DNA from: Acidobacteriota bacterium
GTDB lineage: Bacteria; Acidobacteriota; Holophagae; Holophagales; Holophagaceae
DNA length: 64,000 nt
NCBI GenBank assembly: GCA_016192145.1
Contig: JACPUT010000005.1
Location: 62,001-126,000, forward strand
Direction: 5' to 3'
Below, piece after piece: positions 2,876 to 62,139 of this stretch (positions are counted from its first letter, which is position 1; every line of letters begins with the position of its first letter). The position numbers were made by a program, and so were the translations under genes. The notes below the pieces were generated by a model. The model saw nothing but the letters and a program-made list of their open reading frames with translations, was not told the DNA's origin and ran no database searches.

Positions 2876-3289
2876 TCAGTCCCACTCCCGGTATCCGATC
2901 ACCACCAGGATGCACGCCCCGTTGGCGATGACCTCCAGGCCCGCCGCCTCGGCTTCCCGCACCGCGGCCTGGCTCTCCGCGCCGGGCTGCATCCAAATGG
3001 ACTTCACGCCGGCGGCGATGGCCTCCTTCACCACCTGCTCCGTGATCTTCGGCGGCGTGATCACGCTGATGCCCGTCACCCGCTTGGGCAGGGCCGAAAG
3101 CGAGGGATAGGCCTTCAGTCCCTCGATCTCGTCCGCCCGGGGATTGATGGGGAACACCTCCATGCCGTGCTGTTGGTAGCAGCGCAGCACCTTGTTGCCG
3201 TACTTGTCGCGGTCGCTGCTAGCCCCCACCACGGCCCAGGGCCCGGCGGCGAGGAAGGCTTCGACCTTGGCTTGGATGGAGGTGGACAT
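2876..3289 (-). CDS. CoA-binding domain protein (YccU-like)
   Basis: A 137-residue stand-alone Rossmann-fold CoA-binding domain. It shows WAVVGASSDRDKYGNKV near the N-terminus, then VFPINPRADEIEGLKAYPSL, SVITPPK and the closing IANGACILVV. These match the small YccU/CoA_binding_2 family, whose members bind CoA-type nucleotides but whose cellular role is poorly defined. Start ATG 3287-3289 gives the family's usual length. It is transcribed leftward, toward the FabD-like gene, with the nested palindrome in between, and diverges from the kinase-like gene at 3335, only 45 bp away. Confidence 0.85.
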   Translation of the reverse strand: MSTSIQAKVEAFLAAGPWAVVGASSDRDKYGNKVLRCYQQHGMEVFPINPRADEIEGLKAYPSLSALPKRVTGISVITPPKITEQVVKEAIAAGVKSIWMQPGAESQAAVREAEAAGLEVIANGACILVVIGYREWD

Positions 3290-3334: not shown

Positions 3335-4342
3335 ATGCACGTCTCCTCCACCGCCCAGCCCTGGCACCAGGTGCCCATCCATCTCCGGCGCTCCTACTGG
3401 GAGCTGGAGGAAGGTGAGCGCCACGCCCTCCGCGGTGCGATGGAACGGGAGGCTGAAGCGCTGGCCAACGATCTGGATGCCACCGAGGCCGCCTACGCCG
3501 CCCTCCCCGACACCCTCCGCGGCCGCCTCGTGAACGCCGACCTCATGGCCACCCTCCTGCCCACCCTCCGGGCCAACCCCACCCAGGGCTACGAGGCCCT
3601 CGAGGATCCCGGGGGCCACGCCGTGGTGCACCTCAACACCCTCGGCAAGCGCCTGCGGGACCGCGCCCTGCAGCTGGCGGGCTCCACCCCGGTGCTCATC
3701 CTCATGGGCGGCCAGGCCTCGGGCAAAACCACCGGCGCCTGGGCCCTGGGCCGCGCCTTCGGCGCCGTGTTCGATGCCCCCCACACGGATCCCGAGACCC
3801 TGGCCTTCCTCGTGCGACGCATCCGCGACGACTGGCCCTGGGCCCAGATCCACCTGGCCTACGCGGATCGCAGCCCCGAGAGCAGCCTCTACGCCATGCT
3901 CGATCGCTCCGAGCGGGAGGGCCGCTACGTCCCCCTGGATCGCATGGCCCGCACCCACGCCCGGGCCCCCCACACCTTCCTGGGCCTGGCCTCCCTCCAG
4001 GACGAAGGTCTCTGCCTCTACCACGTCCGCACCCGCTGGAACGCCACCCCCGTCGTCACCGAGGGGGAAGAAGCCGTGACCGGTGTCGCCGGCAGGCAAA
4101 AACCCGCCGAAAGCGCCGTTGCCTGGCGTCTCCAAACGGCGTACCTTGCTCATCTAAGGACAATCCCGCATGACCCATCAGCCAGGCACCCGCGAGACGT
4201 TCTCGCTGGCCTCAACCGAACCCTTGAGCCATGGCGACGGGCCGAAGCCCACCATCTCCTCCAGCGACTTTCTGAGAATGTGGCAGGAGGAAGTCCCCAA
4301 GGTCGTCCAGGCCCACAAGGATCACCACCGCCAAGTGCGTGA
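3335..4342 (+). CDS. Zeta-toxin-like P-loop kinase
   Basis: A 335-residue protein with an N-terminal helical region (residues 1-115) and a Walker A motif GGQASGKT at about 125-132 following the hydrophobic strand PVLILM. After the P-loop comes a region with AYADRSPESSLYAMLDRSEREGRYVPLDRMARTH, written here as separate parts of the lid-type segment seen in zeta toxin/kinase proteins. Such proteins phosphorylate UDP-sugars or other small substrates; the substrate here is unknown. ATG 3335-3337 follows GAAGAGG with good spacing. The last ~58 codons (from 4170) have poor GC3 while a different frame there has good GC3, so the true C-terminus may be shorter or frameshifted. No antitoxin of the epsilon type is recognisable. 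Confidence 0.6.
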   Translation: MHVSSTAQPWHQVPIHLRRSYWELEEGERHALRGAMEREAEALANDLDATEAAYAALPDTLRGRLVNADLMATLLPTLRANPTQGYEALEDPGGHAVVHLNTLGKRLRDRALQLAGSTPVLILMGGQASGKTTGAWALGRAFGAVFDAPHTDPETLAFLVRRIRDDWPWAQIHLAYADRSPESSLYAMLDRSEREGRYVPLDRMARTHARAPHTFLGLASLQDEGLCLYHVRTRWNATPVVTEGEEAVTGVAGRQKPAESAVAWRLQTAYLAHLRTIPHDPSARHPRDVLAGLNRTLEPWRRAEAHHLLQRLSENVAGGSPQGRPGPQGSPPPSA

Positions 4343-4361
4343 AGCCCTCGGCCTCGACTGA
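4170..4361 (+). CDS. Small 63-residue protein overlapping the kinase 3' end
   Basis: ATG 4170-4172 is preceded by AAGGA (4156-4160) and an in-frame TAA at 4155-4157. The frame encodes a hydrophilic, largely helical peptide ending in WQEEVPKVVQAHKDHHRQVR plus a short tail. Its third codon positions are almost all G or C, as in real genes of this window, whereas the overlapping kinase frame has AT-rich third positions. I do not recognise the family. It could be a translationally coupled partner of the kinase, or the genuine tail of the kinase after a frameshift. Confidence 0.5.
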   Translation: MTHQPGTRETFSLASTEPLSHGDGPKPTISSSDFLRMWQEEVPKVVQAHKDHHRQVREALGLD

Positions 4362-4382
4362 AGGTTTAGAGACCTCCCCTGA

Positions 4383-4410
4383 AATCAGGCCACCTCCGGG
4401 TGGCCTGATT
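4383..4410. terminator. Terminator-like hairpin after the 63-residue frame
   Basis: A perfect 12-bp stem (4383-4394 with 4399-4410) closes on a TCCG loop 22 bp after the stop codon. No T-run follows on either strand, so intrinsic termination is likely but not certain. Confidence 0.5.
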
Positions 4411-4445
4411 CGTGGTGGGGAAGCACCCGTGGACAATCGCCTTCC

Positions 4446-4707
4446 GAACGCGAAAAGCGCGAAGAAAAGCGCGAGGGGCGCGAATGGAGCCCGGTGCGGC
4501 CTGGGCTCTTCCCATGGCAAGCAAGACCTGAACTCAGAAGCCGCAGAAGAGAGCATCACCCAACCACCGGCCATCCCCTGTGAGGGCGGCGCAGGGTGGG
4601 CCCTCATAGGCCCGCCCAGCGCCGCCCTCACAGGGGATGGCCCTGCCCCGCAGCTCGAAGGAGCCTTCGCGCCCTTCGCGCTTTTCTTCGCGCTATTCGC
4701 GTTCCAA
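4446..4707. repeat. Nested palindromic element, copy 2
   Basis: The 673-bp gap 4362-5034 has no convincing gene. It contains the second nested palindrome. Outer arms are 4446-4484 and 4666-4707, inverted with about three mismatches over 39-40 bp. The core has a perfect 22-bp inverted repeat (4571-4592 with 4619-4640), extended inward by GGGTGGGCC/GGCCCGCCC to a loop of CTCATA. Core and right arm match copy 1 at 2606-2844. Confidence 0.85.
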
Positions 4708-4935
4708 CTCACCCCCGGTAGTGCGCCTCCAGGAACCCCAACCGATGCCGTTCGTGGGCCCCGTCATGTACTCCGCATGCTCACCGGGCTGGGGACGGCC
4801 TGAAGGTCGCAGGGGCATGGCTCACCTCCCCGCCATTGCGGCGCGGGCCGTCGCGGAAGCCAAGGCCCAAACGCCGGAGATGACGAAGTGTCAGCGCCGG
4901 CGCCAGGGTTTGAATCGAGCCATGGAAAAAGCAAA

Positions 4936-5009
4936 CCAGAGATGAACAGAGATGAACGGAGATGAGATGCTCGTTGCTTTTATCTCCGTTCATCTCTGTT
5001 CATCTCTGG
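4936..5009. repeat. ATGAACAG-type inverted repeat between convergent genes
   Basis: A perfect 28-bp inverted repeat: 4936-4963 pairs with 4982-5009 across an 18-nt loop. Each arm is itself built from reiterated GAGATGAAC words. A T-rich stretch follows on the + strand (5011-5026) and an A-rich one precedes the left arm, so it could end transcription from both sides. The same word family recurs at 23672-23760. Confidence 0.8.
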
Positions 5010-5034
5010 CTCGTTTTTGTTTTTCTCCCCGCCC

Positions 5035-8000
5035 TCACAGGCTCTGCAGCGCCCGCACCGTCAGCGAACTCCGTAGCGTATCCACGGCCTCACAGGCGGC
5101 CAGGGCCGCGTTCATGTTCGTCAGACAGGGGATCTTCAGCCGCAGGGATTCCCGGCGGATGGCGCCTTCGTCGAAGAATGCGTCACGGCCCAGGGGCGTG
5201 TTGATCACCCACTGGATCTCGCCGTTCTTCAGCAGGTCCACCGCGTGGGGCCGGCCCTCGTTCACCTTGAAGATGCGGCGCACCTTGTAGCCCACGGTCT
5301 CCAGATGCCGCGCCGTACCTTCCGTGGCGCAGAGGCCGAAGCCCATGGAGGTGAGCTTGCCCGCCAGCTCCTTGAGCTTCCCCTTGTCCGCGTCGTTCAC
5401 GCTGATGAACACGGTGCCGCTCAGGGGCAGCGGAATTCCCGCCGCCACCAACGCCTTGGCGTAGGCCTCGCCGAAGGTGTCGCCGATGCCCATCACCTCG
5501 CCCGTGCTCTTCATCTCGGGCCCGAGCACCGGATCCACACCGGGGAATTTCGCGAAGGGGAAGACCACGCCCTTCACGGCCACCGCCAGGGCCACCCCAT
5601 CCTGCACGTGCTGCTCGTCCAGCGTCTGCCCCAGGCCGATGCGGGCCGCGATGCCCGCCCAGTCCTGGCCCGTGGCCTTGCTGATGAAGGGCACCGTGCG
5701 GCTGGCGCGGGGGTTCGCCTCCAGGCAGTAGGGCACGCCATCCTTCACGGCCCACTGCAGGTTCATGAGGCCCCGCACGCCGATCTCCAGGGCCAGCTGG
5801 CGGCTCTGAGCCTTCACCGTCTCCAGCACCGAGGCCTCCACGCCCAGGGGCGGGAAGACGCCGAAGCTATCGCCGCTGTGGACGCCCGCCTCCTCGATGT
5901 GGGCCATGACGCCGGCGATGGCCACGCGGTGCCCATCGCAGACGAGGTCCACGTCCAGTTCCTGGGCGCCATCCAGGTAGCGGTCCAGCAACACGGGCTG
6001 ATCCTCGTTCACCGCCGCCGCCTCGCGGAGGTACTTCTCCAGCCCCTCGTCATCGAAGACCACGGCCATGCCGCGGCCGCCCAGCACGAAGCTGGGGCGC
6101 ACCATCACGGGGTAGTGGATGTCGTGGGCGATCGTGCGGGCCTGTTCCAGGCTGGAGGCCATGCCCCACTTGGCCACGGGGATGGCGAGCTTCTGGAGCA
6201 CCTGGCCAAAGCGCTCGCGATCCTCGGCGTCGTTGATGGCCTGCATGGGCGTGCCCAGCAGGGTGACGCCTTCCGCATCCAGTCGGCCCGCCAGCTTGAG
6301 CGGCGTTTGCCCGCCGAACTGGGCAAATACTCCGAGAAGCTTGCCGTTGGCGCCCTCACGGCGGATCACACTCTTCACGTGCTCGTGGGTGAGGGGCTCG
6401 AAGTAGAGGCGGTCGCTGGTGTCGAAGTCCGTGCTCACCGTCTCCGGGTTGCAGTTGATGAGGATGGCCTCCACCCCGCTGGCGCGGATGGCCTCCACCG
6501 CCTGCACGCAGCAGCAGTCGAACTCCACGCCCTGGCCGATGCGGTTGGGGCCGGAGCCCAGCACGATGGCCTTGGGACGGTCGGAAGGCGCGGCCTCGCT
6601 GGCGTCGCCGTATTCCCAGGTGCCGTAGAGGTAGGGCGTCTCCGCGACGAACTCCCCAGCGCAGGTGTCCACCCGCTTGTAGACCGGGTGGATGCCCAGG
6701 GCGTGGCGCCGCTTCTTCACCTCGAAGTCCGAGCCGCCGCAGAAGGTGGCGATCTGACCGTCGCTGAAGCCCGCGCGCTTGGCCTTCTCCAGCAGTTCCT
6801 CCGGCAGGCGATCCACGCTGAAGCCGCGCAGGCGGCCCTCGAGGATGACGATCTCCTCGATCTCGCGGAGGAACCAGGTGGTCACCTTCGTGAGGCGGTG
6901 CAGTTCCTCAACGGTGTGGCCCGCCTTGAGGGCGTGGTAGAGCCAGAAGAGGCGCTGGGGGCCCGGGATGAGCAGATGCTCCCGCAGGCGGCTCAGGTCC
7001 AGCTTGCCCTCCAGGGCGCCGGCGAGGCCGGGGTGGCCTTCTTCCAGGGAGCGCACGGCCTTCTGCAGCGACTCCTGGAAGGAGCGGCCGATGGCCATGA
7101 CCTCGCCCACGCTCTTCATCTGCGTGCCGAGCACCGCCTGGGCCGTGGGGAACTTCTCGAAGGTGAAGCGGGGGATCTTCACCACCACGTAGTCGAGCAC
7201 GGGTTCGAAGGCCGCCTTCGTCTTCTGCGTGATGGCGTTGGGCAGCTCCCAGAGGCGGTAGCCCAGGGCCAGCTTCGTGGCCACCCAGGCGATGGGGAAG
7301 CCCGTGGCCTTGGAGGCCAGCGCGGAGCTGCGGCTCACGCGGGGGTTCATCTCGATGACGATGATGCGGGCATCCTCGGGATTCAGCGCGAACTGCACGT
7401 TGCTGCCGCCCGTCTCCACTCCCACGCCGCGCATGATGGCCTTGGCGGCCTCGCGCATGCGCTGGTACTCGGGGTCGGTCAGCGTGAGGGCCGGCGCCAC
7501 GGTGATGCTGTCGCCCGTGTGCACGCCCATGGGGTCGATGTTCTCGATGGAGCAGATGACCTCGACGTTGTCGTCCAAATCCCGCACCACCTCCAGCTCG
7601 AACTCCTTCCAGCCGAGGATGCTCTCCTCGATGAGCAGCTGCCGCGTGGGCGAGAGGTCCAGGCCCCGGAGCACGATGGTCTCGAACTCCTCGACGTTGT
7701 AGGCGATGCCGCCGCCCGAGCCGCCCAGGGTGAAGGAGGGCCGGATGATGGCCGGGAAGCCCGTCACCTTCAGCAGCTCCCGCGCCTCTTCCAGGCTGTG
7801 GGCGAAGCCACCCCGGCAGGTCTCCAGGCCCAGCTCGTCCATGAGCTTCTTGAAGACCTCGCGATCCTCGCCCCGCTCGATGGCGTCCGGCTGCGCGCCG
7901 ATGAGCTGCACCCCGAGCCGCGCGAAGAGCCCCGACTTGTGGGCCTCCATGGCCAGGTTCAGCGCCGTCTGCCCGCCCACCGTGGGCAGCACCGCGTCGG

Positions 8001-8347: not shown

Positions 8348-9430
8348 TCACTGCTTGTGCTCCTGGAGCAGTTTTAGGAACTTCCCGAAGGCGCTGCGCG
8401 CATCGTGGGGCCCGGGCGAAGCCTCCGGGTGGTGCTGCAGCGAGAAAATGGGCAGCGTCCTATGCCGCAGCCCCTCCACCGTGTCATCGCTCAGGTGGCG
8501 GTGGGTGACCATGATCTCCGGCGGCAGGCTCTGCTCATCCACCGCGAAGCCGTGGTTCTGCGCCGTGATCTCGATGCGACCCGTCTCCAGATCCTGCACG
8601 GGCTGGTTGGCGCCACGGTGGCCGAACTTGAGCTTGAAGGTGGTGCCGCCGAAGGCGTGGCCCAGCAGCTGGTGGCCCAGGCAGATGCCGAAGATGGGGC
8701 GCTGGCCGATGAGCCTGCCCACCTCGGCCTGCATTCCAGGGAGGGCGCCGGGATCGCCGGGGCCGTTGCTCAGGAAGACGCCGTGGAAGCGGCTCGCCAA
8801 CAGCTCCGTGGCGGGCGTGTCCCAGGGGAACACCTCCAGGTGCAGGCCCGCGGCGCTGAGCTGATCCAGGATGCTCTGCTTGATGCCGCCATCGAGCACC
8901 GCCACGCGGTAGGCGGCGCCCTCCTTTACGATCTCGTAGCGATCCCTGCAACTCACCTCCGCGCAGAGGGCCTGCCCCGACATGTCCGGCAGGGCCTTGG
9001 CCTTGGCCACGCCCGCCTCCAGGCTGCCATCGCCTTCCGTCCAGATGATGCCGGGCTGGGAGCCCTGGTCCCGCAGGTGCTGAGTAAGCGCGCGGGTATC
9101 CAACTCCGTGAACACGGGGATGCGGTGCTTCTTCAGCCAACCGCCCAGCTCGCCCTCACTCAACACATGATCGGGCTGGGAGTTGAGGCGTCGGCACAAC
9201 AGGGCCGTGGCCCAGGGCTTGACGGCCTCATTGAGGTCCGCATGGATGCCGTAGATGCCCTGCTCCGGGAAGGTCATGGTGACCATCTGCCCCGCGAAGC
9301 TCGGATCCGTGAGGATCTCCTGGTAGCCCGCCATGGCCGTGGTGAACACCGCCTCGCCGCCGCCCCCGAAACCCAATGGCGCCCGCCCCCGGAAGATCGT
9401 GCCGTCCTTCAGGATCAAGTGCGCTCGCAT
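8348..9430 (-). CDS. carA: Carbamoyl-phosphate synthase small subunit
   Basis: A 360-residue glutamine amidotransferase subunit that hydrolyses glutamine and passes ammonia to CarB. The N-terminal small-subunit domain (AHLILKDGTIFRGRAPLGF, then EAVFTTAMAGYQEILTDPS) is followed by a class I GATase domain with the nucleophile in FGICLGHQ (Cys about 250) and the His/Glu pair in LQHHPEASPGPHD. ATG 9428-9430 was chosen because GGGGGAAG lies just upstream; 37 further in-frame codons upstream do not resemble CarA. The 5' side carries two terminator-like hairpins. Confidence 0.97.
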   Translation of the reverse strand: MRAHLILKDGTIFRGRAPLGFGGGGEAVFTTAMAGYQEILTDPSFAGQMVTMTFPEQGIYGIHADLNEAVKPWATALLCRRLNSQPDHVLSEGELGGWLKKHRIPVFTELDTRALTQHLRDQGSQPGIIWTEGDGSLEAGVAKAKALPDMSGQALCAEVSCRDRYEIVKEGAAYRVAVLDGGIKQSILDQLSAAGLHLEVFPWDTPATELLASRFHGVFLSNGPGDPGALPGMQAEVGRLIGQRPIFGICLGHQLLGHAFGGTTFKLKFGHRGANQPVQDLETGRIEITAQNHGFAVDEQSLPPEIMVTHRHLSDDTVEGLRHRTLPIFSLQHHPEASPGPHDARSAFGKFLKLLQEHKQ

Positions 9431-9504
9431 CGTTGCTTCCCCCTGGCAAGCCTTCGCAGGCCCCACTATGTCAACTCCTCGCGGAGTCCGGCATAAGGAT
9501 CCGT

Positions 9505-9538
9505 AAAAAAGCCACCCCGCACCGCGCGGGATGGCTTT
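9505..9538 (-). terminator. Intrinsic terminator-like hairpin upstream of carA
   Basis: Stem 9508-9520 with 9526-9538 (13 bp with one wobble), followed in the leftward direction by six T residues (9505-9510 on the complement). It is well formed as a leftward terminator but lies 75 bp before carA, after a second similar hairpin. Confidence 0.75.
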
Positions 9539-9549
9539 CAACGGCTCCT

Positions 9550-9580
9550 AAAAACCCCGCTTGGCCTTGGGCCAGCGGGG
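9550..9580 (-). terminator. Second intrinsic terminator-like hairpin upstream of carA
   Basis: Left arm 9555-9566 pairs with 9570-9580 with one bulge; the leftward transcript then reads five T residues (9550-9554 on the complement). Together with the next hairpin it either ends transcription from the hemerythrin-like gene or forms a carA leader. The rest of the 323-bp gap 9431-9753 shows no convincing gene. Confidence 0.7.
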
Positions 9581-9753
9581 CGGATCGATTGGGCGGTCCT
9601 TGGGGGGACCAAAGCGAGTTTATCGGAGGGTGGCACTTGAGAAACATCCTTTTTGTTTCAAGGCTTTTGCCGCATACTACTCCTTTGTTCCCAAGGTCGG
9701 CGAAGGTGGTTCCATCCCCCGCCCGAACCCCAGAAACGAATGCGGCGCCAAGG

Positions 9754-10173
9754 TTACTTTCCGGGCCTTTCCGCGGCGGGATACAGATGGGCTTCCTCCG
9801 CCTCGATGCGCATGCCCACGGCCGCGATCATCACCCTGGATTGGGCGATGAATCCATTCGGATCCTTCTGGATCGCTGATCCGCTGCGCCAAGTGGCGAG
9901 GTAGGCGCCAAAGGCCTCCCTGACTCCCCCCATGTCCTCGCTGTAGCGGTGGGCCAGCGCCGAAGCCTCCTCGCGGCCGCTGTTCAGCAGCGTCGGATAG
10001 AGCAACCGATCCTCCATGGCCAGGTGCACCGTGAGTTTGTCGGCCAGCTCGCCCAAGATCCGCCACGCCGGAATGCCATCCTTCGCCAGCTCCATCGGGT
10101 CGAGCAGCCTATCCAGCTCGCCTGCCAACACCCGCACCTCCTGGTGATGCTCCCGGTACCTCTGGGTATCCAT
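9754..10173 (-). CDS. Hemerythrin-like (HHE cation-binding) protein
   Basis: A 139-residue four-helix-bundle protein of the hemerythrin HHE type. Candidate metal ligands appear in REHHQEV near the start, in HLAMEDRLLYP in the middle, in ALAHRYSEDM and in AEEAHLYP at the C-terminus. Such proteins hold a di-iron centre and bind oxygen, nitric oxide or sense iron; the exact role here cannot be read from sequence. ATG 10171-10173 is preceded by GGAGCTTGC, better placed than the in-frame ATG nine codons upstream. It is divergent from tadA. Confidence 0.8.
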   Translation of the reverse strand: MDTQRYREHHQEVRVLAGELDRLLDPMELAKDGIPAWRILGELADKLTVHLAMEDRLLYPTLLNSGREEASALAHRYSEDMGGVREAFGAYLATWRSGSAIQKDPNGFIAQSRVMIAAVGMRIEAEEAHLYPAAERPGK

Positions 10174-10278
10174 GCAAGCTCCGATGGCCTTGACCTCCAT
10201 TCATCGGGAACCAAACCCGCCCGCATGATTCACAATCACCTCCAGCGCGTTGCCGCCCTGCCCTTCCGGACCCCGCCC

Positions 10279-21498: not shown

Positions 21499-22239
21499 AT
21501 GCGCCTCCACCTCTCCCGCTTCGTGTGCATGGATCCGGCCTCCAACCTGGCCCGCATGGAAGCGGAAGCCCGTGCGGCCGCCCAAGGCGGCGCGGACCTC
21601 GTGGTGTTCCCCGAAAGCTTCCTCCACGGCTACACCCGGGAACTGGATCCCACCTTGGCAAGGGCGGCGTTCCGTCGGGTCTCCGGGGATCATCCCGAAA
21701 CCGGCTTCGTCTTCGGCTCCTTCTCCGAGGACCGCCGCAATCGGATGACGGTGTGGCAAGGGGGCGCCGAGAAGGCCAGCTACGACAAGGTGCACCTCTT
21801 CGCCCCCAACGAGGAGGCCCGCCTTTGGGACCCCGGCGATCGCTACGTCACCGCGAGGCTGGGGGACTGGACCCTGGGCCTCCTGAACTGCAACGATCTC
21901 CGCTTCCCCGAGCAGGCCCGGGCCCTGGTCATGGAAGGCGGCGCCGATCTGCTGCTGGCCGTGGCCTGGTGGCCCTGGCGCCGGGACCACGTCATCTCCA
22001 CCCTGCTGCGGGCCCGGGCCATCGAAAATGCATGCTTCGCCGCCGTCTGCGCCATCAGCGCCTCCGAGTGGCCCGGTGAGGCCTTCGCCGGGGCCGGAAA
22101 CCATGTGTTCGACCCCTTGGGCGAGCCCCTGCGCTCACCGGACGACCACACCTACACCCTGGATCGAAGCCGCTTCGACGCCGTGATGGTGGATCCTCGA
22201 ACAACCTTCATGGATATCCGTACCGTCGACCGCTGTTAG
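21499..22239 (+). CDS. Carbon-nitrogen hydrolase (nitrilase superfamily)
   Basis: A 246-residue hydrolase with the Glu-Lys-Cys triad: Glu about 39 in VVFPESFLHGY, Lys about 97 in YDKVHLF and Cys about 131 in NCNDLRFPEQ. It is close in pattern to omega-amidase/carbamoylase-type members that cleave amide C-N bonds. The substrate cannot be inferred. The chosen ATG gives the standard N-terminus (RLHLSRFVCMDPASNLARM) but has no clear Shine-Dalgarno; a longer in-frame version is unlikely. Confidence 0.85.
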   Translation: MRLHLSRFVCMDPASNLARMEAEARAAAQGGADLVVFPESFLHGYTRELDPTLARAAFRRVSGDHPETGFVFGSFSEDRRNRMTVWQGGAEKASYDKVHLFAPNEEARLWDPGDRYVTARLGDWTLGLLNCNDLRFPEQARALVMEGGADLLLAVAWWPWRRDHVISTLLRARAIENACFAAVCAISASEWPGEAFAGAGNHVFDPLGEPLRSPDDHTYTLDRSRFDAVMVDPRTTFMDIRTVDRC

Positions 22240-26400: not shown

Positions 26401-27078
26401 GTGACCCGCGCCCCTTCCAGCCGCTTCCTCCGCCGCAAGGATGACTTCGAGGGGCTCTGGCTCATCACCTTCGCGGATCTGATGGTGCAGCTCATGGCCT
26501 TCTTCGCCCTCGTCTACAGCTTTGGGGCGCAGGATCAGGCCAAGATGCAGCAGGTGCTGGAGAGCATGCGCAAGGCCCTGGGCGTGCAGGCGGAACCCGC
26601 CAACGGCATCCTGCCCGGCACGGGCGCCCTGGACCCCACCAAGGCTTCGGATCTGGAGAAGGCGCTCACCGAGGCCATGTCCCAGGAGGGGCCCGACAAG
26701 GGGGTGCGCATGCGCATCGTCACCTTCCGCGGCAGCCTCTCCTTCGAGAACGGAAGCGCCGTCATCGCCCCCGGCAGCGCCTTTCTTCTGGATCGCATCG
26801 CCAAACTCACAGGGGACTATCCCGGCTTCACCCTGATCTGCGAAGGCCATGCCGCCCCCGCCGAACGGGACCGGCTGAACGGCGGCGATGCCCTCTCCCT
26901 CAGCAGTGCCCGGGCGCAGAACGCCATGCGGGAGCTCCTCAAGCGCGGCGTGCCCGGCAGCATCATCGCCCTGGAAGCCCACGGCGACACCAAGGCCGAA
27001 GGGGACACCACCAGCCCCGAGGGAAAGGCGCTCCACCAGGAGGTGAAGTTCCGGTTCCAGCGGGTGGCGGAGCGGTAG
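26401..27078 (+). CDS. motB: Flagellar motor stator protein MotB
   Basis: A 225-residue stator subunit beginning at GTG 26401. A single N-terminal membrane helix carries the essential ion-binding Asp about 26 in FADLMVQLMAFFALVYSFG. The C-terminal OmpA-like domain binds peptidoglycan (SFENGSAVIAPGSAFLLDRI, then LICEGHAA and LSSARAQNAMRELLKRGV). It is coupled to motA. The stop codon TAG begins a GGAGGCTGGAG-type repeat. Confidence 0.93.
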   Translation: MTRAPSSRFLRRKDDFEGLWLITFADLMVQLMAFFALVYSFGAQDQAKMQQVLESMRKALGVQAEPANGILPGTGALDPTKASDLEKALTEAMSQEGPDKGVRMRIVTFRGSLSFENGSAVIAPGSAFLLDRIAKLTGDYPGFTLICEGHAAPAERDRLNGGDALSLSSARAQNAMRELLKRGVPGSIIALEAHGDTKAEGDTTSPEGKALHQEVKFRFQRVAER

Positions 27079-27206
27079 GCTGGAGGCCGGAGACTGCAGG
27101 CAAGAGGTTGGAATTCGGTGCGGCCGATCGGCCGCACCACCCATCAGTGAACGGGCGCCCCTTGGGGCGCCCGCACCGTTGGAGGCTCCAGCCTCCGGTC
27201 TACTCT
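27076..27206. repeat. GGCTGGAGGCCGGAG-type inverted repeat between motB and yebC
   Basis: Left part TAGGCTGGAGGCCGGAGACT starts at the motB stop codon, and right part GGAGGCTCCAGCCTCCGGTC (from about 27180) is an approximate reverse complement. The middle holds GGTGCGGCCGATCGGCCGCACC, written in two halves a perfect palindrome, and GGGCGCCCCTTGGGGCGCCC. The same word family is inserted in-frame in the pseudouridine synthase at 56989-57076. Confidence 0.75.
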
Positions 27207-49779: not shown

Positions 49780-52430
49780 GTGTGAACCACCTGCGGGCCT
49801 ACCTCCCCGATCGGCGCCACGCCTGGATCCTGGCGGGGTATTTCATCGCCTTCTTCTCCCTGGAGGTGCTCACCCGGGGGTTCCGGCTGAGCCATGGGGT
49901 CAACCTCTGGTTCCCCGCGCCTTCCCTCTCCCTCGCCCTGGTGTTGGCCTTCGGGGAGCCGGTGCTCTGGGCGGTCTTCCTCGCCCACCTTCCCTACGGC
50001 CTGCTCTACCACTCACCAGGAATCAGCGCCACCGCCACGCTGCTCATGTGCCTCGCCCATGGATCCGCCTATGGAATCCCCGGGCTCATCGCCCGCCGCC
50101 TGGGCCTTCAGGGAAAGCTCGATCAACTCCGGAACCTCACGGGGTTCTTCATCCTGACGCTGGTCTCCTCGGGAATCCTCGCCCTCCTGATGACGTCGAT
50201 CCTGGGCGCGACCCTGTTCGGCCACCGCTCCTTCGGCTCGCTGTTCGCCGCATTGTGGCTGGGGGATGCGGTGGGGATCCTCTGCCTGGCCCCCTTCCTG
50301 CTCACCTGGGCCATTCCGGTGCTCCAGGATGCCCAGCTCGAACCGATCCACGACCTCAGTGCCGCCCGGGTCGTGGAAGCCCTCGTCCAGGGGCTCGTCC
50401 TCGCGGTGGCGTCGGCGATCATCATGTTCCGCCAGCAGGGGCAGGTGTTCCCCCTGAAGTACCTGGCCTTCCTGCCCCTGCTCTGGATCGCGTTGCGCTG
50501 GGGCGCCCGGGGGGCCGCGGCCGCGGCCATGGGCTACGGGCTGCTCACCATCTCGATCTTCCTGGCCCTGGACTTCCCCCAGGCCCTCCTGGGGGACCTC
50601 CAACGCTTCCTGATCGTCCTCATCCCCCTTACGCTGCTCCTCGGCACACTGACGGAAGTGCGGCGCCGGGCCGAACGGGCCCTGGCCAGCCAATCCGCTC
50701 GCCTCGCCTCCATCCTCCGAGCCACGGGGGCTTTCCCCTTTGAACTGGATCGCACCACGGGGAACACCCTCAGCATCGATGAACACCTCAGCCGCACCCT
50801 GGAATGGGAGCCCGCCGAGTGGAACGCCGCGCCCTACTGGGGCCACCTTCTCTCCCCGGGGGACCGGGATCGGTTCCGGACCTTCTGCGAGGGCAACCTC
50901 CAGGGCGCTTTGGAACTCCGGATCCGGATGGGCCAGGGCGGGGAGCGGTTCCTCCAGGTGGTGGCCGGGGCCCGGACCGGAAGCCGGGTTTCCGGGATCC
51001 TCGTCGATGTGCATGAGCGAAAGGAGGCCCAACGCCGCCTCGAAGCCAGCGAGGCCCTCTATCGGGCCACCGTGGAATCCCTGGACGAGGGCGTGGTGGT
51101 GCGGGACCTCGCGGGCCGGGTGCGCTCCATGAACGAGAGCGCCCGACGCATCCTCGGTGGCATGCCCTTGGGCGATTCTACGGCCCTCGAAGAAGTGGAA
51201 CCCCTGGACGAGGACGGCCGCCTGATCCCCTGGGAGGATCAGCCCCCCATGATCGCCCTGCGGAAGCGCATCGCCATCCACTCGGTGATGGGCCTGCGCC
51301 GGCGGGATGGCGAAATCCGCTGGATCACGGTGAGGAGCCGCCCCCTGTGGAACGGCACCGAATTGCAGGGGGTCGTATCCTCCACCCTCGATGTGACGGA
51401 GGAGCGGAACGCCCTCTCCCAGGTGAGGGATAGCGAGGCGAGGTACCGCCAGCTCGTGGAACAGAGCCTCATCCCCATGGCCATCCATCAGGACGGTCGG
51501 TTCGTCTACGTCAATGAGGCCACGGTCCACCTCTTCGGCGCCAAAGGGCCCGAGGAGCTGCTGAACCGCCCCATCCAGGATTGCATCCACCCGGAGGACC
51601 GGGCTGATTCCATGCGACGCTTGGAGTCCCTCGCCCGGGGCGAGGTCGATGTGCTGCCCATGACGGAACGTCGGATCCTGACCCTGGATGGCCGCGTGCT
51701 CATGGTGGACCTCCTCGTGATGGCCGCCCGCTACGGAGGGCACGCGGCCGTGCAGGTGATGGCGGTGGATATCACCGCCCGGAAAGCCATGGAGGCCGGT
51801 CTCCAGGAGGCCCTGAAGGAGAAAGACCTGACCATCCGGGAGATCCACCACCGGGTGAAGAACAACCTCCAGGTGGTCTCCAGCCTCCTGCGGCTCCAGG
51901 CCATCCACTCCGGAAACCCCGAGGTGATCCGGGCCCTCACGGAGGCCCAGGAGCGCATCCAGGCCATCGCCCTCATCCACGCCCGGCTCCATCAGGCCCC
52001 GACCCTGGCCCAGGCCGATTTGCGGGACTACCTCACGCGCCTGGTGGCCCAACTGGTGCGGTCCTATGCCACCGCCCCCAGCCTGGTCGATGCCACCGTG
52101 GAGGTCGCAGACCTGAGATTGGGCCCCGACGAACTCGTCCCCCTGGCGCTCGTCCTGCACGAGCTGATTCTCAATGCCCTCCGGCATGGGTTTGGCCCAG
52201 GCGAGGGTGGAGCCCTCCTGGTGGCCCTCGGCTCGGATGGCGAGGGCCGCATCACGCTCCGGGTGGAGGATGACGGCCATGGATTGCCCGAGGGCCTTGA
52301 CCCCGGCGAGGCCGGAAGCCTCGGATTCCAGCTGGTGAGGGCGCTGGCCGATCAGTTGAAAGGCACCTTCTCCGTGACCCGCCGCAAGGGGGCCGCCTTC
52401 CAGCTCACCTTCCACCCCCGATCCGCATGA
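49776..52430 (+). CDS. MASE1-PAS sensor histidine kinase (HisKA_2 type)
   Basis: An 884-residue kinase. Residues ~10-300 form a MASE1-like membrane sensor with about eight helices. Three PAS-like regions follow, at about 305-415, 420-545 and 550-670. The phosphoacceptor box is EIHHRVKNNLQVVSSLLRLQ (HisKA_2/HWE class), and the ATPase has ILNALRHGFGPGEGG and DDGHGLPEG. The start is TTG 49776, overlapping the preceding stop, or GTG 49782. It overlaps the next kinase by 4 bp, suggesting a joint pathway. Confidence 0.88.
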   Translation: MSVNHLRAYLPDRRHAWILAGYFIAFFSLEVLTRGFRLSHGVNLWFPAPSLSLALVLAFGEPVLWAVFLAHLPYGLLYHSPGISATATLLMCLAHGSAYGIPGLIARRLGLQGKLDQLRNLTGFFILTLVSSGILALLMTSILGATLFGHRSFGSLFAALWLGDAVGILCLAPFLLTWAIPVLQDAQLEPIHDLSAARVVEALVQGLVLAVASAIIMFRQQGQVFPLKYLAFLPLLWIALRWGARGAAAAAMGYGLLTISIFLALDFPQALLGDLQRFLIVLIPLTLLLGTLTEVRRRAERALASQSARLASILRATGAFPFELDRTTGNTLSIDEHLSRTLEWEPAEWNAAPYWGHLLSPGDRDRFRTFCEGNLQGALELRIRMGQGGERFLQVVAGARTGSRVSGILVDVHERKEAQRRLEASEALYRATVESLDEGVVVRDLAGRVRSMNESARRILGGMPLGDSTALEEVEPLDEDGRLIPWEDQPPMIALRKRIAIHSVMGLRRRDGEIRWITVRSRPLWNGTELQGVVSSTLDVTEERNALSQVRDSEARYRQLVEQSLIPMAIHQDGRFVYVNEATVHLFGAKGPEELLNRPIQDCIHPEDRADSMRRLESLARGEVDVLPMTERRILTLDGRVLMVDLLVMAARYGGHAAVQVMAVDITARKAMEAGLQEALKEKDLTIREIHHRVKNNLQVVSSLLRLQAIHSGNPEVIRALTEAQERIQAIALIHARLHQAPTLAQADLRDYLTRLVAQLVRSYATAPSLVDATVEVADLRLGPDELVPLALVLHELILNALRHGFGPGEGGALLVALGSDGEGRITLRVEDDGHGLPEGLDPGEAGSLGFQLVRALADQLKGTFSVTRRKGAAFQLTFHPRSA

Positions 52431-55843: not shown

Positions 55844-56644
55844 ATGCACCCCTACCTCATTCAACTCGGGAACTTCCCCATCGGCACCTACGGACTGATG
55901 CTCGCCATCGGATTCTTCGCGGGCACGGCCCTGGCCAAGCGGCAGGGCAAGCTGGATGGCATCGGAGGGGAATTCATCCCCGACCTGGCGATCACCTTGC
56001 TCATGGCGGGCATCATCGGCGCCAAGGTGGTGCTGATCCTCGTGGAGATGATCAACGGCCGCATGACCTTCTCCGAGGTGTTCTCCCTCGCCACGCTAAG
56101 GGCGGGGGGTCACATCCACGGCGGCATCATCTTCGGCGCGGCAGCCTTCTTCTGGAAAGCGCGCAAGGCCGTGGGTCACACCGTGGCCCAGATCGGGGAT
56201 GCCCTCGTGCCCGGCGTGGCCCTGGGCCAGGCCATCGGCCGTATCGGCTGCTTTGCCGCGGGCTGCTGCTACGGCACCGTATGCAGCGCGCCCTGGTCCG
56301 TCACCTTTTCGGATCCGCACGCCCACGAGCTCAGCGGCACGCCCCTGGGCATCCCGCTCCACCCCGTGCAGCTCTACACCTTCGCCGCCAACCTGGCCGT
56401 GATGGGCCTGCTGCTCCTGACGCGCAGGAGGCGCCGCTTCACGGGCCAGATCACCGCCCTCTACTTCATCCTGGAAGGCGCGGCCCGCCTGACGGTGGAA
56501 ATTTGGCGCGGGGATCTCGACCGCGGCGCCTGGCTGGGCCTCGATTGGCTCAGCACGGGCCGCCTCACCGCCATGGCCTTCGTGGCCTTCGGCATCGCCC
56601 TCTGGATCTGGTGGTCCCGCACGAAAGAAGAGGTCCCCGTATGA
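55844..56644 (+). CDS. lgt: Prolipoprotein diacylglyceryl transferase
   Basis: A 266-residue inner-membrane enzyme that transfers diacylglycerol from phosphatidylglycerol to the lipobox cysteine. Signature motifs are GQAIGRIGCFAAGCCYGTVC, HIHGGIIFG and HPVQLYTF; the essential Arg/His residues in these are present. About seven membrane helices. It fits the lipoproteins seen here (13352, 63565). It is coupled (ATGA) to the pseudouridine synthase. Confidence 0.96.
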   Translation: MHPYLIQLGNFPIGTYGLMLAIGFFAGTALAKRQGKLDGIGGEFIPDLAITLLMAGIIGAKVVLILVEMINGRMTFSEVFSLATLRAGGHIHGGIIFGAAAFFWKARKAVGHTVAQIGDALVPGVALGQAIGRIGCFAAGCCYGTVCSAPWSVTFSDPHAHELSGTPLGIPLHPVQLYTFAANLAVMGLLLLTRRRRRFTGQITALYFILEGAARLTVEIWRGDLDRGAWLGLDWLSTGRLTAMAFVAFGIALWIWWSRTKEEVPV

Positions 56645-57666
56645 TCCGTCACGAACTGGATAGCCCCTCCCCCCGCCTGGACAAGTTCCTCGTGGAGGCC
56701 CACCCCGAAGTGGGCCGCGCCCGTTGGGACGCCTGGATCAAGGAGGGCCGCGTCCTCGTGAACGGCACCGCCGCCACCAAGGGCGGCCACAAGCTCAAGG
56801 TGGGCGACGCGGTGGAGACGGAGCTGCCCCCCATCACCCCGCCCGCCGCCGACCTCGTGGGCGAGATCATCGACCTGCCCACCCTCTTCGAAGACGGCCA
56901 GATCTGGATCGTGGATAAGCCCTCGGGCATGGTGGTGCACCCCGGCCCTGGCCACTCGGGCGGAACGCTGGTGAACGCCCTGCTGGGTAGGCTGCAGACC
57001 GGAGGCTGGAGACCGGAGGCCGGCGAAATCGATCCCCTCGCTGACCTCCAGCCTCCAGCCTCCAGCCTGCAGCCTGAAGAAGAGGAGGCCGCCATCGCCT
57101 GGCCTGGCCTCGTGCACCGCCTGGATCGCTTCACCACCGGCTGCGTGGCCCTGGGCAAGACCCGCGAGGCCCAGGAATCCCTCCAGTCCCAGTTCCAGCA
57201 CCGCACCGTGGAGAAGCGCTACCTGGCCATCGTGCGCCACAGCCCCAAGCTCCCGGAATTGGGCAGTCTCCTGGTGGATCAGCCCCTCGCCCGCCACCGC
57301 ACCGAGCGGCAGAAGATGGCCGTGGTCGCGGGCGGTCGCGCGAGCCAGACCCGCATCAAGGTGCTGGCCCGCACCAAGAACGCCGCCCTCGTGGAGTGCG
57401 AGCTGCTCACGGGGCGCACGCACCAGATCCGCGTTCACCTGGCCCACCTCCGCGCCCCCCTCATGGGCGATCCCCTCTACGGCGGCCCCAGCCGCTGGAT
57501 GGCCACGGATGGCCAGATGCTCGACCTGCCCCATCCCCTGCTCCACGCCTGGCGCTTGGGCCTCAAGCACCCCACCACCGGTGAGCCCCTCCTCGCCGAG
57601 GCCCCCATCCCCGCGCCCTTCCGGGAGGCCGCCGAACGACTGGGGCTGGCGGAGGGTCTGCCTTAG
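56641..57666 (+). CDS. RluD-family 23S rRNA pseudouridine synthase with in-frame repeat insertion
   Basis: A 341-residue pseudouridine synthase. An S4 domain (1-60: RLDKFLVEAHPEVGRARWDA) precedes the catalytic domain, with the catalytic Asp in LVHRLDRFTTG (family HRLDxxTSG) and GRTHQIRVHLAHLRAPLMGDPL near the end. RluD-type enzymes modify helix 69 of 23S rRNA; the exact site is not assigned. Residues ~117-146 (LQTGGWRPEAGEIDPLADLQ and on) are an insertion encoded by an inverted repeat between the VNALLG strand and the catalytic loop. It follows lgt with an ATGA overlap. Confidence 0.9.
   Translation: MIRHELDSPSPRLDKFLVEAHPEVGRARWDAWIKEGRVLVNGTAATKGGHKLKVGDAVETELPPITPPAADLVGEIIDLPTLFEDGQIWIVDKPSGMVVHPGPGHSGGTLVNALLGRLQTGGWRPEAGEIDPLADLQPPASSLQPEEEEAAIAWPGLVHRLDRFTTGCVALGKTREAQESLQSQFQHRTVEKRYLAIVRHSPKLPELGSLLVDQPLARHRTERQKMAVVAGGRASQTRIKVLARTKNAALVECELLTGRTHQIRVHLAHLRAPLMGDPLYGGPSRWMATDGQMLDLPHPLLHAWRLGLKHPTTGEPLLAEAPIPAPFREAAERLGLAEGLP
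56989..57076. repeat. In-frame GGAGGCTGGAG-type palindromic insertion in the pseudouridine synthase gene
   Basis: Left arm 56989-57022 (AGGCTGCAGACCGGAGGCTG and onward) faces the right arm 57041-57076 (GACCTCCAGCCTCCAGCCTC and onward). The ~88 bp are a multiple of three in effect, since the frame is kept. The same words, including GACCGGAGGCTGGAG, occur in the motB-yebC gap at 27076-27206. Confidence 0.8.
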
Positions 57667-59171: not shown

Positions 59172-59379
59172 GGGCCCAGCATGGTCCCCCTCTGCGCCCC
59201 AGGGGGCTCCCCCCGGGGCCAGTTGCCCCCTTCCTGGGGCAGAGCGCCCTGGCCAAGGATTGTGGTTGGTGATGCATCCAATAGGCTTAACAACAATTCA
59301 CAAACAACCTGAACGAATTGGCTGGAGACTGAACATTTCTTAACAACCGCCGTATGCCCTCGGTGCCCTGGAGTTGAAC

Positions 59380-62139
59380 ATGACCCCCGCGAAACCCCTG
59401 GCGTGGTTCCTCCTCGCCTCGAGCTGCCTCCCCGCCCTTGCCCAAACCTCAGCGGCCCTGCGCGTCCGGAGGGTGGGATCCGCCGGCCAGCCCCTGGCCA
59501 ACGCCCTCGTGACCGTCCACTCCATCGAGCGGGCGGAAAAGCGCACGGCGCGCACCGATGCCGCGGGCTGGGCGAGCTTCGCGGGAATGCTGCCCGGCCG
59601 GTACCGCATCGAAGGCCAGGAGATCGCCCTGAAGCCGGACTCCCGGATGGAGCTCGTGATCCGCCAGCAGGAGGCCGCCGCCGTGGTGGAGATCGAAGCG
59701 TCTCCCCTGCGCACGGAAACGTCCTCCGTGGGGGTGCAGGCGACCCTGCTCGCCTCCGATCTGGAACGCATCCCCTTCGCGCCCCACCGCTTCGCGGAGC
59801 AAAGCGCCGTGATGCCCGGCGTCTCGCCCAGCGGCAAGCCCGAGCCCGTGGTGCTCGGATCCATGCTGGATGGCAACAGCTTCCAGGTGGATGGCATGGC
59901 GACCAACCTCGCCTCCACCGGTCGCTTCGGCATGAACCTCAGCTCCGAAGTGCTGGAGAGCCAGACCGTCACCACCGGCGGCCACAAGGCCGAGGTGGGC
60001 TTCGCGCCGGGCGGGGTCTTCAACCTCGTCACCAAGACGGGCACCAACACCCTGAAGGGGAGCCTCTTCGCCAGCGCCATCGACCGGAGCCTCAACGCGA
60101 AGGTGGAGGATGGCAAGGCCAACAATCCGGAGGAGCGCGCCACCCACGCCCGGGAATGGGGAGTCACCGTGGGCGGGGCCTTCATCCCCGATCGCCTCTT
60201 CTTCTTCGGGGCCTTCAACCGCCAGCTCACCGACCAGGATTTCGACAACATCACCCCGCCCGGGGGCGCGCCCCATCGCCGCACCCTGGCCGAAGACCGC
60301 TCCTACCGCTTCTTCAAGCTCACCTGGCTGGCCACGGACAATCACCGCCTGGAGGTGGCCTGGTTCGGGGATCCCGTGGTGCAGCGCAACTTCGATGACC
60401 CCGCCAACGCCTCGCTCAAGGACGAGCAGCTCGGCAGCCGCACCCGCGGTGGCAACAGCTGGCTGGTGAAGCATGTGGGCGTGCTGGGCGCCAACCTCAC
60501 GTGGGAGAACACCCTGGGCCTGCACCGCACCGCCTTCCAGTGGTCCCCCGCCGTCCCCGAGGCGGGTCCCAACCGGGCCCAGTTGGACGCGCCCCTCCGG
60601 GAGAGCTTCGGCCGCTACGCGGAGGACCGCCTGGAGCGCGTCGAGAACCTGAGCCTGCGTTCGGAGTTCACCCTCTTCGCCGGCGGGCACCAGGTGAAGG
60701 TGGGCTTCCAGGGCCTGCGCTCCGACTTCACCACCGAATACCGACGCCCCAGCAGCGGGCTCGCCTTCCTGGATCGCGCCGCCGGTGGCAGCGGTCCCGC
60801 CGCCGGGGACATCACCGCCATCCGGGCGGGTCTCCTCGCCCTGAACGGCTCCGACTACGCCTATGCAAATGGGGATAGCCTCCTCACGGCGAGCCCGGTG
60901 AGCGGCCAGCTCGCGGGTGGCCGGGCGAGCTACCTCTACCAGCGCACCCTGGCCTCCCTGGCTTCCTACGGCGATCCCCTCCGGCAGCGCACCCTGGGGA
61001 TCTTCGCCCAGGACGACTGGCAGGTGGGCTTGGGCTGGACCCTCAACCTGGGCCTCCGGGTGGATCGCGCCGCCGTGGATGGCGAGGACGGGCGCGGCCT
61101 CTACCGCCAGACCCTGCTCAGCCCCCGCCTCGGGGTGAGCTGGGATCCCACCCGGGACGGCCGGAACCGGATCTTCGCTTACGCGGGACACATCTACAGC
61201 CCCCCCACGCCCGGCGCGCTGGCGGCCGCGGGCGCCACCAGCGGCGGCCCCGCCACCACGCGCCAGGTGTGGATCCCCACCCTGTCCGAGTGGCGCACCT
61301 GGCAGCAGACGGGCGTCCAGGGCGTGCGCAACGTCGCCATCGCCCCGGATCTGAAGGCCGCGCGCACCGACCTCTACCAGCTCGGTGCCGAGCGCCTCCA
61401 GCCCATCCCCGCCCTGGGCACCTGGATTCTCGAGGGGGTGCTCACCCTGAAGCGCACCCACGATCTCATCGACACCTACAACCCCGCCTGGGGCTACCTC
61501 CCCCAGTACGATGCCGCCGCCAACGCCACCGCGGGCAAGCGCTACGTGGGCAACCTGCCCGGCCTGGAACGCACCTTCAAGGGCCTCGATCTCTCGGCCC
61601 ACCGCCGCTTCGCGGGGGGGCACCTCTTCCAGATCAGTTACAGCCAGGGGGATCTCCGGGGCAACAGCCAGGTGGGCGGCGTGGCTTCCGCCACGGGCCG
61701 CAACACCGGCTTCGCGAGCATCCCCAGCCTTCGCCAGGACTATCGCCAAGCCGCATACGACGGCCCCCTCAACGAAAGCCTGAAGCACTCCTGGAAGGCC
61801 TACGGAAGCGCCGCCCTGCCCTTCGGGTTCGAACTCTCCGGCGTCGTCCTCCACCGGTCGGGCCTCCGCTACAGCGCCCTCGTCACCGCCAGCGGCGACG
61901 CCGTGCTGGCCCCCGGCGAAACCCGCGGCAACCGTGAACTCCCCAAGGTCACCACCGTGGACCTGAGCATCGCCAAGGTCTTCACCCTGCCCAAGAGCTC
62001 CCTGCGCACGGCCGTGGAAGTCTTCAACCTGCTCAACGCCCAGCCCATGATCTGGGTGAACAACGTGGGCGCCACCACCACCCCCGGCAACCACCTACAG
62101 CCGCGGGCCCTCCAGTTCTCGGCGCGGCTGACGTTTTGA
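59380..62139 (+). CDS. TonB-dependent receptor with carboxypeptidase-regulatory-like N-terminus
   Basis: A 919-residue outer-membrane protein. A signal peptide (LAWFLLASSCLPALAQ) is followed by a carboxypeptidase-regulatory/Cna-B-like domain (about 28-95), a plug region (about 100-230: SFQVDGMATNLASTGRFGMN, GFAPGGVFNLVTKTGTNTL) and a long beta-barrel. This is the acidobacterial 'Oar-like' TonB-dependent transporter type; the ligand is unknown. ATG 59380 has GGAG upstream, chosen over the in-frame TTG two codons earlier. The 208-bp upstream gap (59172-59379) has an AT-rich end but no clear promoter. Confidence 0.88.
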   Translation: MTPAKPLAWFLLASSCLPALAQTSAALRVRRVGSAGQPLANALVTVHSIERAEKRTARTDAAGWASFAGMLPGRYRIEGQEIALKPDSRMELVIRQQEAAAVVEIEASPLRTETSSVGVQATLLASDLERIPFAPHRFAEQSAVMPGVSPSGKPEPVVLGSMLDGNSFQVDGMATNLASTGRFGMNLSSEVLESQTVTTGGHKAEVGFAPGGVFNLVTKTGTNTLKGSLFASAIDRSLNAKVEDGKANNPEERATHAREWGVTVGGAFIPDRLFFFGAFNRQLTDQDFDNITPPGGAPHRRTLAEDRSYRFFKLTWLATDNHRLEVAWFGDPVVQRNFDDPANASLKDEQLGSRTRGGNSWLVKHVGVLGANLTWENTLGLHRTAFQWSPAVPEAGPNRAQLDAPLRESFGRYAEDRLERVENLSLRSEFTLFAGGHQVKVGFQGLRSDFTTEYRRPSSGLAFLDRAAGGSGPAAGDITAIRAGLLALNGSDYAYANGDSLLTASPVSGQLAGGRASYLYQRTLASLASYGDPLRQRTLGIFAQDDWQVGLGWTLNLGLRVDRAAVDGEDGRGLYRQTLLSPRLGVSWDPTRDGRNRIFAYAGHIYSPPTPGALAAAGATSGGPATTRQVWIPTLSEWRTWQQTGVQGVRNVAIAPDLKAARTDLYQLGAERLQPIPALGTWILEGVLTLKRTHDLIDTYNPAWGYLPQYDAAANATAGKRYVGNLPGLERTFKGLDLSAHRRFAGGHLFQISYSQGDLRGNSQVGGVASATGRNTGFASIPSLRQDYRQAAYDGPLNESLKHSWKAYGSAALPFGFELSGVVLHRSGLRYSALVTASGDAVLAPGETRGNRELPKVTTVDLSIAKVFTLPKSSLRTAVEVFNLLNAQPMIWVNNVGATTTPGNHLQPRALQFSARLTF

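Follow-up and report, generated by a model that had tools for sequence, protein, structure and literature searches.

What is the palindrome that lies in-frame inside a gene for an rRNA pseudouridine synthase, and how did it come to be there? The question arose in a 64,000-nucleotide stretch of DNA (positions 62,001 to 126,000 of contig JACPUT010000005.1, assembly GCA_016192145.1; hereafter the window) from an Acidobacteriota bacterium of the Holophagaceae. The open reading frame at 56641–57666 (+) belongs to the RluA/RluD family by its translation and profile matches (TIGR00005 at 256.9 bits, over cut-off, together with PF00849 and PF01479). Between its VNALLG and VHRLD segments, a palindrome at 56989–57075 is read in-frame as the peptide RLQTGGWRPEAGEIDPLADLQPPASSLQP. 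Its arms (56989–57026 and 57038–57075) are 38 nt long and 84% complementary, and the predicted RNA fold has an energy of –64.1 kcal/mol, where shuffled sequences average –41.0 (z = –6.09; none of 200 shuffles equalled it). The strength of the fold and the uninterrupted reading frame bear out the palindromic repeat that the original prediction had placed in this gene. Its build was only partly anticipated: the palindrome stands, but the underlying unit is a 7-nt tandem word laid out in two inverted arms, a point absent from the prediction. The left arm (56989–57024, +) comprises the units GGCTGCA, GACCGGA, GGCTGGA, GACCGGA, and GGCCGGC; the right arm (57045–57075, –) comprises GGCTGCA followed by three GGCTGGA units on the reverse strand; and the loop between them (57025–57044, +) is without the CGACCC core described below. 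A structure prediction for the RluD-type protein had a mean pLDDT of 48 and was left unused.

A second element of the same make occupies 27078–27200 (no strand assigned) between convergent genes, and its first base is overlapped by the TAG stop codon of the left gene. It holds two extra GC-rich hairpins between its arms, which the RluD copy lacks. The sequence GACCGGAGGCTGGAG is common to both copies (56997–57011 on the + strand, 27186–27200 on the – strand), as is GGTAGGCTG, in agreement with the claim that one word family fills both the RluD hairpin and the 27-kb gap, named motB-yebC in that claim. Allowing at most one mismatch, GRCYGGAGRCYGGA occurs 12 times in the window versus 1.6 expected, a number reached in none of 100 shuffles. 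Lone heptamer-like matches at 21534–21547, 51878–51888, and 59320–59333 are possibly remnants.

The words are not confined to the window. Across the 3.8-Mb genome, GGAGGCTGGAG has 57 + 53 copies (reversed control, 4 + 2), so the repeat does recur elsewhere, dispersed and in high copy, and three consecutive GRCYGGA units without mismatch are found 63 + 52 times (control, 0 + 0). In this family, the 7-nt word GRCYGSA is repeated in tandem along each of two inverted arms; its forms are GGCTGGA, GACTGGA, GACCGGA, and GGCCGGA, plus variants with C at position 6. Sampling 50 loci and the window yielded 50 GRCYGSA clusters, a count that includes two-unit in-gene matches regarded as chance (L089:1320, L099, and L103); 35 clusters have at least two exact units in both arms, and arrays range from 2 to 13 units. 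By eye, the copies fall into three anatomical classes, built around two GC-rich hairpins, around a CGACCCA...TGGGTCG core, or around a short loop; the RluD copy is of the short-loop class. Since 7 and 3 share no common factor, a stop-free heptamer array encodes one and the same cyclic heptapeptide whichever frame of a strand is read: GGCTGGA gives GWRLEAG, and its other strand SSLQPPA. The two arms of an element do not mirror each other as copies would: shuffled partners matched equally well in 1884 of 2000 trials in the outer register and in 394 of 2000 in the inner one, and mirror copying was rejected on this ground.

Does the hairpin represent an insertion into RluD? In 30 aligned relatives, the spacing from NALL to WPGLVHRLD is 25–37 residues (median 27), compared with 38 in the window protein, and none of the 30 has a heptamer-derived peptide at this linker. 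They do, however, carry a variable, acidic linker of 25–37 aa at the very site of the hairpin, so there is no clean empty site, and the net gain is about 11 codons above the median relative. The insertion claim thus holds in part: the peptide is private to this protein among the relatives compared, but a clean insert of 30 codons is not supported. The linkers of Escherichia coli RluD and of sphingomonad RluD, the latter from the four RluD loci that a scan of named genomes yielded, are much shorter; the segment is not conserved in these distant homologues. Taken together with the relatives, this suggests that the hairpin replaced part of a variable linker.

One member of the GRCYGSA family offered a clue to the origin of the others. 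At locus L070 (L070/L115), the arms stand far apart and enclose an open reading frame of 132 aa that matches TIGR02436 (110 bits) and PF05635 (102.8 bits) and is similar to PDB entry 2gsc. These profiles describe IVP, the four-helix-bundle protein of 23S rRNA intervening sequences (IVS); to our knowledge, IVP is not a known transposase. The source genome has only two PF05635 genes. Both sit inside inverted 7-nt arrays, and the word is not the same: the second gene is enclosed by AAGGACY. AAGGACY pairs number 40 + 48 genome-wide (control, 0 + 0), and this word also forms about 20 short two-armed hairpins. Of the two-armed hairpins, 16 of 20 AAGGACY members and 8 of 35 GRCYGSA members contain CGACCC or GGGTCG, which has a background of 0.07 per 100 bp in the sampled loci. 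In both IVP elements, CGACCC follows the 5' arm and precedes the start codon of the IVP gene. This shared motif ties the short hairpins of the genome to its IVP elements. Among the 15 other family IVP loci, CGACCC occurs within 200 nt upstream in one (L132); an alignment of ten sequences was chosen for holding the motif and hence is no test of it. The IVP open reading frame (PF05635/TIGR02436) is absent from both window copies. An insert in the genome's own 23S rRNA was also considered and dropped, as the draft assembly has no LSU rRNA match.

Both hairpin families have a marked position relative to genes, here called with a purpose-built simple caller. Among clusters outside genes, a neighboring stop codon is no more than 10 nt away for 37 of 43 of the GRCYGSA kind and 12 of 21 of the AAGGACY kind, and several clusters share bases with that codon; for GRCYGSA, the 7 clusters classed inside coding sequence include the chance-like L089:1320, L099, and L103, and the AAGGACY count leaves out second clusters in L214 and L216, which are of the other family. 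Between co-directional genes, the mean position on a stop-to-start scale is 0.215 for GRCYGSA (n = 24) and 0.192 for AAGGACY (n = 13), with none of 20,000 uniform draws as low. About 84% of the sampled DNA is coding, so heptamer clusters strongly avoid genes. Selection against damage to start regions may underlie the bias to the stop side. Short spacers between convergent genes were rejected as proof of targeting, because element-free convergent spacers are short too (median 15).

A few copies are nevertheless read within genes, and in unrelated proteins, as expected if the repeat can enter genes and be tolerated there. Besides the RluD-type gene, an IcmF-type mutase (L081, 191–3604, –) carries a single array at 3042–3069, which encodes LQPPASSLQP in the linker before the GTPase domain. 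At L090, one open frame (4071–5537, +) joins endonuclease III (Nth) to a TroA-like (helical backbone metal receptor) domain, with an element at 4739–4790 at the joint; this frame is possibly a gene fusion made by the heptamer element. At the same locus, a heptamer hairpin (9196–9247) extends the C-terminus of a glycosyltransferase (9163–10182, –).

We then asked how general the enclosure of IVP genes by heptamer arrays is. PF05635 was matched in 23 of 77 genomes of the family and in 151 of 396 genomes of the phylum (E 1e-20). Flanks were scored by the best inverted match above a shuffle null, and then by its period. Using the best-scoring loci, some of them close kin (L186, L190), and leaving cut flanks unscored (10 of 30 in the family, 5 of 29 in the phylum), inverted arms were found at 15 of 20 scored family loci (13 with period 7, one with period 8) and at 22 of 24 scored phylum loci (17 with period 7, two with period 8, one with period 9). 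They were also found at 11 of 20 plasmid loci, from 20 of the 28 records (8 with period 7, three with period 8–9), and at 6 of 11 loci on viral contigs, scanned with a single IVP protein (4 with period 7, one with period 8). In control windows, an inverted match exceeded the null in 22 of 307, and period 7 was seen in 2 of 307, both adjoining known elements. Arms did not exceed the null at 5 of the 20 loci scored in the family, at 2 of the 24 in the phylum, at 9 of the 20 on plasmids, and at 5 of the 11 on viral contigs. In the plasmid loci L227, L232, and L234, only the left flank carries a tandem array. At L229 (Azospirillum lipoferum), the IVP element, with 7-nt arms, lies inside an LSU (23S) rRNA gene. 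Separately, we noted arms of period 8 or 9 rather than 7 at L120, L191, L197, L203, L238, L239, L243, and L250. IVP genes were also seen between cas10 and a cmr3-type gene (L228, Picosynechococcus), between cas6 and cas4 (L225, Pseudanabaena), and, with strong 7-nt arms, between the beta and alpha genes of ribonucleotide reductase (L236, a Nostoc plasmid). One family genome (G054) has about ten divergent PF05635 matches, and the two of its loci that were read (L135 and L141) are without arms.

The arm words vary by genome (AGCTATC, AGTCTTC, AGTCCTC, AGTTGGC, GGCTTCT, and others), and short arrays go with them. Five family genomes whose IVP arms are of the AGCTATC type have 35, 66, 78, 83, and 154 RGCTRTC triples, whereas 55 of the remaining 72 have no AGCTATC-type arrays (Mann-Whitney p = 5.9e-6, and 1.6e-4 within genus g3, values that overstate independence because the compared genomes are related). 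The other 17 of the 72 carry AGCTATC-type arrays, up to 221 in G040, with no AGCTATC-armed IVP gene seen; the IVP locus of G040 is cut and shows AGCTGTT arrays. For these 17 genomes, the arrays may have been there before the gene or survived its loss, or the IVP gene may lie in missing sequence. G001 likewise has GRCYGSA arrays and no IVP match.

Collectively, our results make it probable that the RluD insert is a short, ORF-less derivative of a family of heptamer-armed repeats whose ORF-bearing parents carry an IVP gene; the source genome has such a parent with the same ends, as for a MITE, in the IVP element L070/L115. The short copies would have arisen by internal deletion of IVP elements and would owe their spread to mobility, perhaps helped by IVP in trans. 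Their settling at stop codons could mean either that insertion is least harmful there or that the element prefers such sites. RluD could accommodate its copy because a 7-nt array lacking stops leaves all frames open and because the linker at this site is variable. IVP resembles Avd, described in the available part of one source as the reverse-transcriptase partner in diversity-generating retroelements (PMC10053308); a match to the profile NF033474, at 19.7 bits, is under its cut-off. Given this likeness, an RNA or cDNA step in the spread is possible, but neither strand bias nor covariation backs an RNA stem. Arm mismatches have no strand bias (52 sense-wobble versus 58 antisense), and AAGGACY arms have almost no covariation (the covariation term is unfavorable, with double changes in 2 of 16 pairs), results on which RNA-level selection on the arms was rejected.

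A different reading is that the hairpins evolved in place and serve the host at 3' ends, as terminators or as structures that protect mRNA, with the RluD copy a stray and the IVP association hitch-hiking. The proximity of 37 of 43 and 12 of 21 extragenic elements to stop codons, the co-directional means of 0.215 and 0.192 that no uniform draw undercut, and the two extra GC-rich hairpins of many GRCYGSA copies all speak for it. Yet random insertion followed by selection sparing start regions could yield the same bias, some copies are read within coding frames, the words vary by genus and are missing from most family genomes, and the same arm type encloses IVP genes across phyla. We consider this reading unlikely, though it deserves more weight than the other three. 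Local slippage without mobility, with low-complexity coding drift making the RluD palindrome, would account for arrays of 2–13 units, for the variable linker at this site in relatives, and for arms that are not mirror copies, but it leaves unexplained why dozens of unlinked sites have a pair of inverted arms, why copies have the internal CGACCC motif in common, and why IVP genes are found inside the arms, so that we regard it as quite improbable.

Two further readings seem to us the least probable of all, and about equally so. Were the hairpin a functional part of RluD, under selection as a structured RNA or a protein loop, its strong predicted fold and preserved frame would follow, but none of 30 relatives has it and distant homologues lack the segment. 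Movement of REP/REPIN-type repeats by RAYT, a Y1 transposase, would fit palindromic, high-copy, inverted pairs with a variable spacer; here, however, the arms are 7-nt tandem arrays of variable unit number, and Y1_Tnp was unmatched in the source genome at E 1e-3, while a control found it in 5 of 14 genomes. A RAYT/REPIN origin was rejected for this lack of Y1_Tnp.

The derivation of short hairpins from IVP elements, together with the arms at IVP loci elsewhere, hints at a poorly recognized kind of mobile element. We tentatively advance a wider, joint proposal, which we rate as slightly short of an even prospect: IVP genes would define mobile elements that are widespread as a class and have, as their boundaries, inverted tandem arrays of a 7-nt (at times 8- or 9-nt) word specific to the lineage; 23S intervening sequences would be the members that landed in rRNA; and the class would have spawned ORF-less hairpins that reach gene ends, are absorbed into proteins, or join neighboring genes. 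Such absorption is conceivable since the frame in which a stop-free array is read makes no difference to its seven-residue peptide. If true, the orphan protein of 23S IVS, dispersed heptamer repeats, and in-frame palindromes gain one identity, it becomes possible to test how 23S intervening sequences spread, a long-standing question, and the elements are a source of new protein segments, for which luck of frame is needed only in a length divisible by three.

Parts of this picture have counterparts in known systems. Cyanobacterial STRR are likewise tandem heptamers, found also in rnpB and as extended RNA stems; we know of no link between them and IVP. REPIN and BIME sequences are mostly extragenic. 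They resemble the window family in their inverted pairs and high copy number, as far as the part of the account at hand goes (PMC3116915), but no RAYT-type transposase was found in this genome. Heptamers of the word TAACTGA in Beggiatoaceae are, in the portion of the report available, abundant intergenic direct repeats with one inverted case (PMC4679880), comparable to the window family as abundant intergenic 7-nt repeats; that text, however, mentions neither four helix nor S23 nor intervening sequence. In the literature covered, whose scope excluded subscription papers and most preprints, we recognized no paper that connects inverted arrays of heptamers to IVP genes located outside rRNA.

The 23S intervening sequences are closest to the IVP elements. 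Not all of them hold an S23p/IVP open reading frame. In Coxiella burnetii, the sections of the source at hand describe a 28-bp stem, excision by RNase III, and two to three tandem GACAGAT heptamers before the ORF, their number differing between strains (PMC4990558). The Coxiella IVS and the IVP elements reported here share terminal inverted repeats with an IVP ORF between, and terminal inverted repeats are also present in the window copies; the A. lipoferum element is itself a 23S IVS with 7-nt arms. However, those sections treat the heptamers as a 5' feature rather than as the unit that builds the stem (PMC4990558), and of the window copies one is in rluD and the other in a gap between genes, neither of them in rRNA; they are ORF-less and high-copy. 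Rickettsia palindromic elements, to which the original prediction had likened the RluD hairpin, are described in the accessible part of their report as 105–146 bp long with terminal inverted repeats, with in-frame palindromes in 19 Rickettsia frames (PMC2229807). The likeness is sound in that both are palindromic repeats that occur in intergenic DNA as well as, in-frame, within conserved protein genes, the present family being dispersed in many copies and in-frame in unrelated conserved proteins. What the parallel missed is what, by that partial description, sets this family apart from the Rickettsia elements: its 7-nt tandem unit, its bias toward stop codons, and its link to IVP.
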